Shown piece after piece: positions 28,871-54,969 of a stretch of DNA of 64,000 nt. The position numbers were made by a program, and so were the translations under genes. Numbering within the stretch: the stretch's first letter is position 1; each line of letters opens with the position of its first letter. Source of the stretch: Ferranicluibacter rubi (GTDB taxonomy: Bacteria > Pseudomonadota > Alphaproteobacteria > Rhizobiales > Rhizobiaceae); contig NZ_JAANCM010000016.1 in the NCBI RefSeq assembly GCF_011603255.1, positions 1 through 64,000 on the forward strand, read 5' to 3'. Below the pieces are notes generated by a model. It was not told where the DNA came from, did no database searches, and worked only from the letters and a program-made list of their open reading frames with translations.

Positions 28871-29461
28871 CTATCCTTCTCTGTACTGAAGCTTCCCCAT
28901 AACCGTACTAGCGAGGCCTGCGTTCATCCTCTCGGCGACTGCCAATGCAGCGGCGGCCTTGTTTTTGAAGGGCAAGAGAGCTTCGACAACGTATCGATCG
29001 CCGAGTGCCTTGGCAATGCACGCGATATCGAACATGTCGAGTGGTTGAAGGGAGGCACCCCGGTAGTGAACCTTCTTCGCGATGATCTCGCCCGGTGTCT
29101 CAAGGTCAACTTCGATCCCTCGCACCGTGACACGGGACGTAGGATCGTCGGTCAGGCTTGGAGCGCAAATGTAGTCGATTTCACCAATGTCCGCGAACAC
29201 GATCTTGAGCGCATGCGTCCCGTCCGAAATATATTCATCGGGGTTCACCTGCAGGGTATAGCCCTGCGTTGTCGGATTCAGATATGGGAGGACCTGCGGA
29301 TCATCGATGAAAATGTCGATATCGAAGCTTTCACGATGGCTGATCTGGAGCATAGGGGCGGTCCCGCCGCCGAAAGTCCAGCTATCGAGGAGTGTAAAAG
29401 AAGAGTTTGCCTGATTGATAATCGACACAGACTGGTCGAAGAGGCTTTCCCATTGGCTCAT
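28871..29461 (-). CDS. AbiEii/AbiGii-type nucleotidyltransferase toxin
   Basis: 196 aa, the short form of the family. The polymerase-beta-like active site is visible as TFGGGTAPML (Gly-Gly-x-x-Ala loop) and ESFDIDIFID (Asp-x-Asp). The helical half includes TPGEIIAKKVHYRGA and the LDMFDIACIAKALG segment found in AbiEii proteins. AbiEii toxins of type IV toxin-antitoxin and phage-abortive systems transfer nucleotides to targets such as tRNA. A usual AbiEi-type winged-helix antitoxin is absent; the gene instead follows an 87-codon gene of unknown family by 11 bases. Confidence 0.85.
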   Translation of the reverse strand: MSQWESLFDQSVSIINQANSSFTLLDSWTFGGGTAPMLQISHRESFDIDIFIDDPQVLPYLNPTTQGYTLQVNPDEYISDGTHALKIVFADIGEIDYICAPSLTDDPTSRVTVRGIEVDLETPGEIIAKKVHYRGASLQPLDMFDIACIAKALGDRYVVEALLPFKNKAAAALAVAERMNAGLASTVMGKLQYREG

Positions 29462-29472
29462 CAGGACAGCCC

Positions 29473-29736
29473 TCAGGCGGATAGGGCGAGCGGGTATCCG
29501 GCTAGCTGCGAGAATTTCTTGGCAATCTCGGATGCGGTCCCGTAGTCAATTTCCATCTCATCCAGAAACTGGTGCTGGAGCTCAACTTTCACTTCGGAAT
29601 AGAATGAGAATGCGGAAGCATCGAAATTCTCAACACTAGCGAAATCGAAAATCTTCGAAGCGAGTTGCTCAGCCGAAAGGTTCGTCCCGTAGGGGGCGTT
29701 CACCGTCGACAGTACCTTAAACGCAACGCTAGACAT
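29473..29736 (-). CDS. Small protein of unknown function upstream of the AbiEii gene (possible antitoxin)
   Basis: 87 aa, not recognised. Sequence is soluble and mixed (SSVAFKVLSTVNAPYGTNLS at the N-terminus, then an acidic DEMEIDYGTASEIAKKF helix). No helix-turn-helix. It is 11 bases from the nucleotidyltransferase gene on the same strand, an arrangement usual for antitoxin and toxin. The ATG at 29736 gives the better distance to GGTGG; 29742 is also in frame. Confidence 0.65.
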   Translation of the reverse strand: MSSVAFKVLSTVNAPYGTNLSAEQLASKIFDFASVENFDASAFSFYSEVKVELQHQFLDEMEIDYGTASEIAKKFSQLAGYPLALSA

Positions 29737-29947
29737 CGTCATTACCACCAGTTTTCAATAGGCTATGTAATACATATCCGTCAAAAACGCAAGAAACACC
29801 GCAGATGCAGGCATTCAACGGCAATTACACAAATGGGAAACGATGTCGCAACGAGCACGCGCCAGTCGCGACGTAATCAGCAACGCTGAAACGCCGCTGA
29901 ACCGCCCCGGCTTTGCCGGAGACCTCAACTCGTGAGAAGTAGGGTCT

Positions 29948-31113
29948 ATGACAAGCAAAACGACGAACAAATTTTCTCCTGAAGTTCGTGCCCGTGCTGT
30001 TCGGATGGTGATGGAGCATGAAGGCGAACATCCCTCCCGCTGGGCGGCGGTATCGTCGATAGCGGCCAAGGTCGGTTGCTCGGCGCATACCCTCCATGAA
30101 TGGGTGAAGAAGGCCGAGGTCGACAGCGGCAAGCGCGCAGGTTTGCCGAGTGACGTGGCTGAGAAGATGAAGGCTCTGGAACGGGAGAACCGGGAGCGTC
30201 GTCAGGCGAATGAGATTCTACGCAAAGCCTCGGCGTATTTTGCCCAGGCCCCTTTCAGCGAATGCAAGCATTCGCTTGTCGGGCAAGGGGAGCTCGACCG
30301 CCCACTGAAGCGATGATTTCCTTCATCGACGAACACCGCTCGGTGCTCGGGGTCGAGCCGATCTGCAGGCTGCTGCCGATTGCCCCGTCCACCTATTATG
30401 AAGTCGTCGCCAAGCGCACGGACGTGGGTCGCCTATCAGTCCGCGAACGGAATGATATTGCCATGAGAGTCGAGATACGCCGGGTGTTCAACGAGAACTT
30501 CCAGGTCTATGGCGTGCGGAAAGTGTGGCGACAGTTGCAGCGAGAAGGCTTCGACGTCGCTCGACCGCGTCAATCGCCACTTCAAGGCTCCCGCGCCGAA
30601 CATGCTGTGGTTATCCGATTTCACCTATGTCGCGACCTGGCAAGGCTTCGTTTACGTGGCCTTTGTCATTGATGCCTTCGCCCGCCGTATCGTCGGTTGG
30701 CGGGCAAGCCGGACGGCTCATGCAGGCTTCGTGCTCGATGCCCTCGACCAGGCGCTTCATAATCGGCGGCCTGTCAAACGCGGCGGGCTTGTTCATCATT
30801 CCGACCGCGGCTCACAATACGTGTTCATTCGCTATTCCGAACGGCTGGCCGAGGCGGGCATCGAGCCGTCTGTCGGAAGCGTTGGCGACAGTTACGACAA
30901 TGCTCTCGCCGAAACGATCAACTGTCTTTACAAGGCCGAGGTCATCCATCGGCGAGGACCATGGCGCAACTTCGAAGCTGTGGAGTTCGCCACACTGGAA
31001 TGGGTCGACTGGTTCAACCACCGCCGCCTTCTGGAGCCCACCGGAATATCCCGCCAGCCGAGGCCGAAGAACGATACTACGCCATGCTGGACGTGCCAGC
31101 CATGGCCGCATAA
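29948..31113 (+). pseudogene. IS3-family transposase orfA-orfB with cassette insertion, deletion and frameshift
   Basis: OrfA (29948-30316) has the IS3 helix-turn-helix ([20 protein letters not shown] ... [14 protein letters not shown]) and the leucine-rich tail ending ELDRPLKR, but 13 extra codons (30250-30288) split its last part in frame. OrfB starts at 30313 by ATGA overlap. Near 30558 the frame jumps: GFDVA is followed directly by DRVNRHFKAP in another frame, so about 40 residues are missing compared with related IS3 transposases. The catalytic core is otherwise recognisable (LWLSDFTYVA, HHSDRGSQYV, GDSYDNALAE). One more base is missing near 31042, shifting the end; the native ending DVPAMAA is readable up to 31113. 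Confidence 0.85.
30250..30288 (+). repeat. Palindromic mini-cassette, copy 1 (in IS3 orfA, in frame)
   Basis: A 39-base insertion relative to related IS3 orfA genes. Its centre is a perfect 9-bp stem, AGCGAATGC-AA-GCATTCGCT (30257-30276), followed by TGTCGGGCAAG. The same organisation recurs in IS66 tnpC at 54823-54862. Length divisible by three, no stop in the read frame. Confidence 0.7.
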
Positions 31114-53291: not shown

Positions 53292-54969
53292 ATGGATGAT
53301 GCTGCTTCGGAGATAGCCAGATTGCGCGCCGCGCTTGCGGTATCGGAAGCGCGTGCCGCCTCCGCCGAGGCCGATCTCGCGCAGGTGCGCGCCGTCGTGA
53401 CGACTTCGGAGGCGATGATCCGGCACCTCAAGCTCGAGATCGCAAAGCTGCGCCGTGAGCAGTATGGCCAGAGCTCGGAACGGCGCGCCCGGCTGATCGA
53501 CCAGATGGAACTGCAGCTCGAAGAACTCGAAGCTGACGCCACCGAAGACGAGATCGCGGCTGAACGCGTGGCAGCGAAGATCACAAATGTCTCCGCCTTC
53601 GAACGCCGCCGGCCGGCCCGCAAGCCGTTTCCCGAACATCTGCTGCGCGAGCGCCTGGTCATCGAAGCTCCCACGCAATGCGCCTGCTGCGGCTCGGCCC
53701 GGATCGTGAAGATGGGCGAAGACGTCACCGAGACGCTGGAGGCGATCCCGCGCCAGTGGAAAGTGATCCAGACGGTGCGGGAGAAGTTCACCTGCCGGGA
53801 CTGCGAGAAGATCAGCCAGTCACCGGCCCCGTTCCATGCGACACCGCGGGGATGGGCAGGTCCCAACTTGCTCGCTACGATCCTGTTCGAGAAGTTCGGC
53901 CAGCATCAGCCATTGAATCGCCAAGCCGAGCGCTACGCCAGGGAAGGCGTCGATCTCAGCCTCTCCACGTTGGCCGACCAGGTCGGAGCCTGCGCGACCG
54001 CCCTCCAGCCGATCCATGACCTGATCCGTGCCCATGTTCTGGCAGCCGTTCGGCTGCATGGTGACGACACCACCGTGCCGCTTCTGGCCAGGGGTGCAAC
54101 AAGGCAGGCAAGGTTATGGACCTACGTCCGCGATGATCGTCCCTTTGCGGGCGGCGGGCCTCCTGCAGCGCTCTTCCACTTTTCTCCGGACCGGGAGAAG
54201 ACCCATCCCAACACGCATCTTGCCGGATGGCACGGCATACTGCAGGCGGATGCCTATGGTGGCTACAACGATCTCTATCGTGCGGATCGCCGCCCCGAAC
54301 CGGTCAAGAGCGCGCTCTGCTGGAGCCATGCACGGCGCAAGTTCTTCGAACTGGCCGATATCGCCGGCAATGTGCGCAAGGGCAAACCTGCCCACGAGAT
54401 ATCGCCTGTCGCGCTCGAGGCCGTCGCCCGCATCGACGCGCTCTTCGATATCGAGCGAGGCATAAATGGGAAGTCCGCCGAGGAGAGACTGGTAGCGAGG
54501 CGGCAGCATGCGCTTCCGATCGCCGAGGAACTGCGCGACTGGCTCATGGCCCAGCGTTCCCAGATGTCGAAGCACAATCCCGTCGCCAAGGCGATCAACT
54601 ACATGTTCGAGAAGGAGGGACGCTGGGAGGCCTTCACCCGGTTCCTCGATGACGGCAGGCTATGTCTGACCAACAATGCGGCCGAGCGCGCCCTGCGCGG
54701 GATAGCTCTCGGAAGAAAGGCGTGGCTATTCGCCGGCTCCCAGCGCGGCGGCGAGCGTGCTGCCTTCATGTATTCCCTGATCGTCACGGCCAAGATGAAC
54801 GACATCGATCCGCAGGCCTGGCCTTACGGCGCATGCAAGCATGCGCCTGTCGGCTAAGAGCATGGCGGACGTGCTCGCTCGCATGCCTGGCATCCCCGTG
54901 TCGCGGCTGCCTGAACTGTTGCCGTGGAACTGGTCTTCCGCAGGCCACGTCCACCAGAAAGCAGCCTGA
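53292..54969 (+). pseudogene. tnpC: IS66 TnpC transposase truncated by a palindromic cassette
   Basis: DDE transposase. N-terminal coiled coil, a zinc-finger pair in CACCGSARIVKMGEDV and FTCRDCEKISQ, and the catalytic Asp in VRLHGDDTTVPLL, a second in LQADAYGGYNDL and Glu in NNAAERALRG are intact. After DPQAW a 40-base insertion (54823-54862) shifts the frame and brings a TAA at 54855-54857, giving 521 aa. The lost tail is readable after the insertion (ADVLARMPGIPVSRLPELLP ... VHQKAA) up to 54969. Only the tail is missing, so activity may or may not remain. Confidence 0.9.
54823..54862 (+). repeat. Palindromic mini-cassette, copy 2 (in IS66 tnpC, frameshifting)
   Basis: 40 bases with a perfect 9-bp stem GGCGCATGC-AA-GCATGCGCC (54828-54847) followed by TGTCGGCTAAG. 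Same layout and mostly the same bases as the insertion in IS3 orfA at 30250-30288. Limits are inferred from related tnpC sequences, so they could be off by a base or two. Confidence 0.7.

Follow-up and report, generated by a model that had tools for sequence, protein, structure and literature searches.

Two small hairpins lie inside transposase genes of unrelated families in a 64,000-nt stretch of Ferranicluibacter rubi DNA (GCF_011603255.1, NZ_JAANCM010000016.1; this whole stretch is called the window below), which raises the question of what they are and how they came to be there. The initial annotation regarded them as a small mobile element inserted into an IS3 orfA and an IS66 tnpC. Both hairpins were found at these places, and it is probable that they belong to a new family of very small non-autonomous mobile palindromes, possibly moved as single-stranded DNA by a trans-acting enzyme.

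Hairpin copies in the window and their relatives

Copy 1 (39 nt, positions 30250-30288, plus strand; covariance model E 3.1e-10) was located in an ORF of 122 aa (29948-30316, plus strand) that kept its frame across the insert and was assigned to IS3-type orfA by Pfam and NCBIfam, the match being weak and under the NCBIfam cut-off. Copy 2 (E 8.6e-8) was located in the IS66 tnpC gene (53292-54857, plus strand), identified with the same two databases as TnpC. Its site had been recognised correctly, but the proposed borders, 54823-54862, were off by two to three bases with respect to the family-wide borders, which give a 39-nt element at 54821-54859 of the plus strand. Pairing analysis and DNA folding placed an inner stem of 9 bp with a two-letter loop at 30257-30276 in copy 1 and at 54828-54847 in copy 2, both on the plus strand. 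A third copy in the genome lay on another contig, at the same IS3 site as copy 1.

Comparison with uninterrupted homologues showed that 39 nt of the window orfA were absent from the gene of Rhizobium sp. C104, and that 40 nt of the window tnpC were absent from the genes of Shinella sp. and R. leguminosarum. The extra 40 nt consisted of the 39-nt element and one adjoining base, which was a separate change. Since the empty Shinella tnpC was 97.3% identical to the window gene, the IS66 insertion looks recent. Several related IS3 elements have the orfA site in common, as would be expected if the hairpin were native to these transposase genes; empty alleles were found for both window genes and at 108 of the 258 family sites tested, which ruled this reading out and leaves it with next to no probability. 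The same empty homologues, at the window genes and across the family, support the view that the hairpin is a small mobile element. An insert of 13 in-frame codons had also been proposed, and this was correct for copy 1, with its 122-aa frame, but did not emerge as a clear property of the family (29 of 95 sites drawn with the covariance model had a length divisible by three). The stop that copy 2 was said to bring was present, the tnpC frame terminating inside the insert.

When the family of the window's organism (394 genomes) was searched with the pattern, 27 matches in 20 genomes were obtained and the reversed control pattern gave none among the matches listed, so the resemblance is not a matter of chance. 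When one genome per species was scanned, at least 117 stretches matched; the best 80 of these were mostly from Rhodobacterales, with Rhizobiaceae and Aureimonas in addition. A covariance model was then built from 72 sequences (alignment A3), comprising the two window copies and 70 of 78 reference loci; the eight loci omitted had been judged by eye to be chance matches, and three of them (L035, L044 and L110) later reached E <= 1.4e-5. The covariance search of the whole genome and of related genomes that the initial annotation had suggested revealed a large alphaproteobacterial family. The F. rubi genome contained three copies, the next match having E > 1. Across the class, 7 of 289 genomes, with F. 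rubi itself counted, had matches. In a Rhodobacteraceae-like family, 20 of 41 genomes carried copies, up to 38 each, in a sample centred on genome G547, which had been picked for having matches. Six further genomes (G722-G727), reached through loci with matches to the fixed-length pattern, had 7-29 copies each. Once partial matches (positions 8-27), some duplicate loci (few in number) and matches with E above about 0.01 had been set aside, 345 model rows were left, and these gave 265 distinct copies. Similar elements were found at different sites. The family is spread in rhizobia and marine relatives, mainly inside genes of other mobile DNA.

Element anatomy and insertion site

The element was 34-45 nt long, 39 nt being the commonest length. 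With position 0 set at the C of CTCTC, the 39-nt form spans -2 to 36 and has the layout N CC TCTC, a stem of positions 5-13 with 16-24, two loop letters, TGYCGG, N' and Y A R N R. Over the 265 copies the arms were conserved as NCCTCTC on the 5' side and TGYCGGN'YARNR on the 3' side, and stem and loop together measured 15-26 nt. The conserved AA loop of the initial annotation was not borne out, as the two loop letters were free.

In the 72 aligned sequences, 95.0% of the stem cells were paired, against a shuffled mean of 82.9, and changes on both sides of a pair were found in 99 cells, against a shuffled mean of 30.8; none of 500 shuffles was as high in either measure. Two cruder measures on the same sequences gave no excess, namely the number of pairs having a both-sided change (7 versus 6.3 in shuffles) and of further pair types (13 versus 13.0). 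Two of the 13 pairs were broken in 15 and 20 of the 72 sequences. The compensatory nature of the stem changes, proposed from the two window copies, was thus upheld by the cell counts but not by the cruder measures. Beyond the stem, positions -2:31 and 32:36 formed coupled pairs. DNA folding of four copies gave the inner hairpin with modest z-scores (-0.57 to -2.71). The stem is kept through its pairing, and its sequence is free.

Insertion sites were studied by joining the two flanks of each copy by script and seeking empty homologues of the joined sequence among the loci compiled for the family. Enough flank was available for 258 of the 265 distinct sites, and an ungapped empty homologue was found for 108 of them. 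When the 3' border was shifted by up to two bases, the borders -2 to 36 were the best in 82 of the 108 cases and were one base off in the other 26. Insertion therefore did not duplicate the target and in most cases removed nothing from it. Where the empty site was exact (82 cases), the target read N, followed by G (62), A (52), T (50) and G (48). The point of insertion was thus exact and lay ahead of a GATG-like target, and in most cases target bases were neither duplicated nor lost. The combination of terminal inverted repeats with target duplication that characterises MITEs was not found, 82 sites being exact without duplication and 26 one base off. With the IS66 allele left aside, the best empty homologue was 91.4% identical, so most of the insertions seen may be old.

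The base at -3 of the empty site was coupled to element base 36 (mutual information 0.455 over the 82 sites; as high in none of 10000 permutations), and the host base preceding the insert was also coupled to element base 32. A host G was accompanied by T32/A36 in 12 of 18 cases, and the other host bases by C32/G36 in 62 of 64. Among all 265 copies, T32/A36 after C, T or A was found in 13. Because rhizobial and marine copies differ in their arms, part of the -3 coupling may be subfamily structure; the link between -3 and the 32:36 pair may arise from two subfamilies that differ in their targets, and not from direct contact.

The ends of IS200/IS605 elements form hairpins, insert without target duplication and read the target by means of element bases. 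By analogy with the IS200/IS605 and REP types of HUH/Y1 element, the hairpin would move as a folded single strand, its arms and the 32:36 pair may help to read the target, and movement would be carried out by an enzyme supplied in trans. At the level of described features, the likeness to IS200/IS605 ends consists in the hairpin and in insertion without target duplication (82 of 108 sites exact). Unlike them, the present family has no transposase gene, a single hairpin and a different target, and the possible counterpart of target reading is a statistical coupling of -3 with 32:36. This association, together with the small size of the family and its location mainly in IS genes, makes the movement of transposase-less palindromes testable.

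Host genes of the element and comparison with described palindromes

The kinds of genes that carry the element were determined for distinct sites. According to local profiles, a transposase or integrase domain lay no more than 150 bp away from 181 of the 265 sites, and from 66 of the 95 in the model-drawn sample; this typing is partly circular, because the profile seeds came partly from the flank peptides. Tallies with Pfam and NCBIfam were independent of the local profiles and were made on 94 of the 95 flank peptides of the model-drawn sample, one duplicate having been dropped. The NCBIfam matches, in overlapping rows, were to IS3 (45), IS481 (28, overlapping IS3), IS5_2 (15), IS1182 (8), IS30 (3), IS630 (3), IS66 (2) and IstB (2). 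The Pfam tallies agreed in direction, with rve (32) and DDE_Tnp_1 (9) in the lead.

The other 84 sites had 163 ORF pieces, of which 147, from 76 of the sites, were scanned, and the most frequent NCBIfam matches were IS3 (7), IS481 (6), IS91 (5), IS5_2 (5), IS256 (4), IS1182 (3) and IS21 (3), with 25 of 64 families listed; most of the 147 pieces were without a match among the matches listed. In genome G722, 11 of the 21 sites examined (29 copies in total) adjoined transposase or integrase domains, and 2 of 20 ORF pieces from the ten untyped sites matched Pfam or NCBIfam models, these being Dxr and a weak IS91. In the plasmid gene annotation, whose table holds no pseudogenes, most of the listed element places had no listed gene. 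Overall, models of IS3, IS5, IS1182, IS66, IS21, IS30, IS256, IS630 and IS91 were matched. The family is among the smallest mobile elements and is found mainly in IS genes, with at least nine IS families matched.

The number of elements per genome followed the IS3 load (Spearman 0.61, 41 genomes), the IS3 counts of the richest genomes being lower bounds. Against an assumed IS3 share of 3%, a value chosen in view of the IS3 candidates, which numbered no more than 106 in any of 42 genomes, the 45 IS3 matches among 94 peptides gave a binomial p of about 1e-42. The proposal that the element targets mobile DNA was thus in agreement with a strong enrichment in the transposase genes of IS from many families, but these genes were not its exclusive hosts: HrpB, acyl-CoA synthetase and citramalate synthase models were matched by one neighbouring ORF piece each. 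Targeting, selection or amplification driven by the IS may account for the enrichment in IS genes.

Such ordinary-gene neighbours would be expected if the element inserted at random everywhere and IS genes were a neutral sink, insertions into needed genes being purged and those into IS genes tolerated and multiplied. This explanation is a serious possibility, although we consider it less probable than not. It accords with the multi-copy nature of insert-carrying IS. However, the enrichment was obtained for distinct sites and not for copies, with IS3 in 45 of 94 flank peptides but in no more than a few percent of these genomes, as estimated from IS3 counts; several inserts were found in one IS of about 1.4 kb; and neutral intergenic DNA and other pseudogenes would be expected to hold many more copies.

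As a separate observation, repeated antisense insertions in different genomes (L012, L014, L029, L055, L088 and L120) were noticed by eye at or near the conserved YGY|RR of IS3 orfB, which looks like a recurrent hot site.

Most descriptions of small bacterial palindromes place them outside genes, and the best-known ones occur together with RAYT transposases. Like the GTAG REP sequences associated with RAYT, the present element is a hairpin with a conserved foot and is thought to be mobile; unlike them, it has no GTAG foot, the arms over the 265 copies being NCCTCTC and TGYCGG, and is not mainly extragenic, and the Y1_Tnp domain was missing from 17 of the 20 carrier genomes in the Rhodobacteraceae-like family. 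Rickettsia palindromic elements are palindromes within protein-coding genes of an alphaproteobacterial group, and differ, by description, from the present family in that the hosts here are mainly IS genes. Mitochondrial byp elements are mobile hairpins of about this size within genes; here, in contrast, both orientations occur, and there are mixed indications as to whether an interrupted host gene still functions.

CGTC palindromic repeats are mostly alphaproteobacterial, have no dedicated transposase and are partly intragenic, according to the account in PMC3733652, which also names the Rickettsia palindromic elements and reports that CGTC repeats are associated with transposase genes in only a few cases, which are fortuitous. 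As far as that account describes them, they share with the present element a short palindrome with a stem of 8-9 bp, a mainly alphaproteobacterial distribution, the lack of a dedicated transposase and an occasionally intragenic position. The differences, on the same descriptive basis (PMC3733652), are a CGTC tag and a CCA tail instead of the NCCTCTC and TGYCGG arms, a stem that opens with a paired A-T where most stems here open with RRYG or similar, and the location mainly in transposase genes, which holds for the hairpin family only. Of the tags CGTC, TGTC and CCTC, none was found beside the stem in the way described: CCTC was present two bases away from it, and TGTC adjoined its 3' side in some copies. 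With regard to HH dimers, many copies were single, and inverted pairs within a few hundred bases were seen, untallied, in IS-rich genomes. In view of these differences, the family was not classed with the CGTC REPs.

Membership in one of the described REP super-families, GTAG and CGTC, or kinship with the Rickettsia elements, is accordingly improbable in spite of the similar size of the palindrome and the shared features named above, since the GTAG foot, the CGTC tag by the stem and the A-T stem start are lacking and the transposase context is strong. Insert lengths speak on both sides of this comparison. In the six genomes G722-G727, 62, 22 and 17 of the 101 copies had lengths leaving 0, 1 and 2 on division by three (the 62 were mostly of 39 nt, and 22 of 29 copies in G722 were divisible), as would be expected of inserts tolerated in proteins; these genomes had been reached through loci of the fixed-length pattern. 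The model-drawn sites, by contrast, showed no bias to multiples of three (29:40:26 for 95 sites; 12:13:16 for the 41 sites with a transposase domain on both sides). The two counts are opposed, and selection for frame may or may not have acted. Judged by titles and the beginnings of abstracts, with subscription papers poorly covered, no earlier description of the family was recognised in the literature. The hairpins apparently form a new family of REP-like mobile elements concentrated in IS genes.

Fate of the interrupted insertion sequences and candidate enzymes

The consequences of insertion were studied in multi-copy IS. In genome G694, one IS3 was present in six copies that had at least 99% identity across the query and shared four inserts; three partial matches at 75-81% are left out of this count. 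The copies had matching inverted ends, and three of the six were flanked by a 3-bp duplication. Since they share the same four inserts, the IS was most simply copied after insertion. Two inserts lay in each orientation, and when the inserts were skipped, a continuous frame of 308 aa was obtained. Among the six copies there were 14 replacement changes but 3 silent ones, as dead genes would show; this also suits the neutral-sink explanation. In genome G547, all four matches of at least 99% carried inserts, and these four IS5 copies differed, in one frame, by 5 silent and 2 replacement changes. The evidence on host function after insertion is therefore mixed, the replacement-to-silent ratios of 14/3 in G694 and 2/5 in G547 pointing in opposite directions.

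The multiplication of insert-bearing IS, seen in all six G694 and all four G547 copies, the intact G694 frame outside the inserts and the excess of silent changes in G547 would be explained if the insert were skipped on expression of the host gene, by translational bypassing or RNA removal as in byp elements, so that the transposase stays active. We regard this as very improbable. Among the 95 model-drawn sites, 61 inserts were in the sense and 34 in the antisense orientation (sense excess, p 0.007), so both orientations occur, as they do within the G694 IS; the G694 copies show 14 replacement against 3 silent changes; further IS3 elements of G694 have open frames and could supply their products in trans; and the window IS66 frame stops within its insert. 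In the preferred explanation, that of a mobile palindrome moved by an enzyme in trans, an insert can break the host transposase, as it may have done in the window IS66, or disturb a frameshift signal, as it may in the window IS3. An IS copy with its passenger would still be multiplied, most simply by transposase acting in trans, and the hairpin would spread with it. In nature, the hairpin may also hold insertion sequences in check.

Candidate enzymes were sought in 42 genomes. A RAYT-type transposase, for which the initial annotation had recommended a search, gained no support: Y1_Tnp was found in 3 of 20 carriers and 1 of 21 non-carriers of the Rhodobacteraceae-like family, showing no link to the element, and none was found in the F. 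rubi genome. Y2_Tnp (IS91 type) was found in 6 of 20 carriers and in 0 of 21 non-carriers (Fisher p 0.009). None was found in the F. rubi genome, and it was also missing from 14 of the carriers; because of this, and because it may follow IS load, Y2_Tnp is a weak lead. A stronger reading of all these data is that the hairpin is a hyperparasite of IS, whose own bases encode target choice, whose transposition is directed to the transposase genes of IS from many unrelated families, which silences IS while spreading by them and which is moved by a new kind of trans-acting enzyme. This combination of claims is unlikely.

In the window, an Rfam search gave a single match, the ALIL frameshift pseudoknot of IS3 at 30273-30387 of the plus strand (84.9 bits). 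The ALIL score was 110.6 bits in the empty locus L007, and 77.8 and 60.6 bits in L006 and L005, where the match spans the insert. By comparison with the empty homologue, the window IS3 insert falls in the 5' part of the pseudoknot and may therefore disturb orfA-orfB frameshifting. Apart from the hairpin, a second lesion was observed in the orfB of this IS, where about 100 bases were missing at approximately 30557-30563 relative to Rhizobium sp. C104. On the minus strand at 28871-29748, a nucleotidyltransferase-like ORF of 196 aa and a neighbour of 91 aa were noticed by eye, which resemble an AbiE-type toxin-antitoxin pair.
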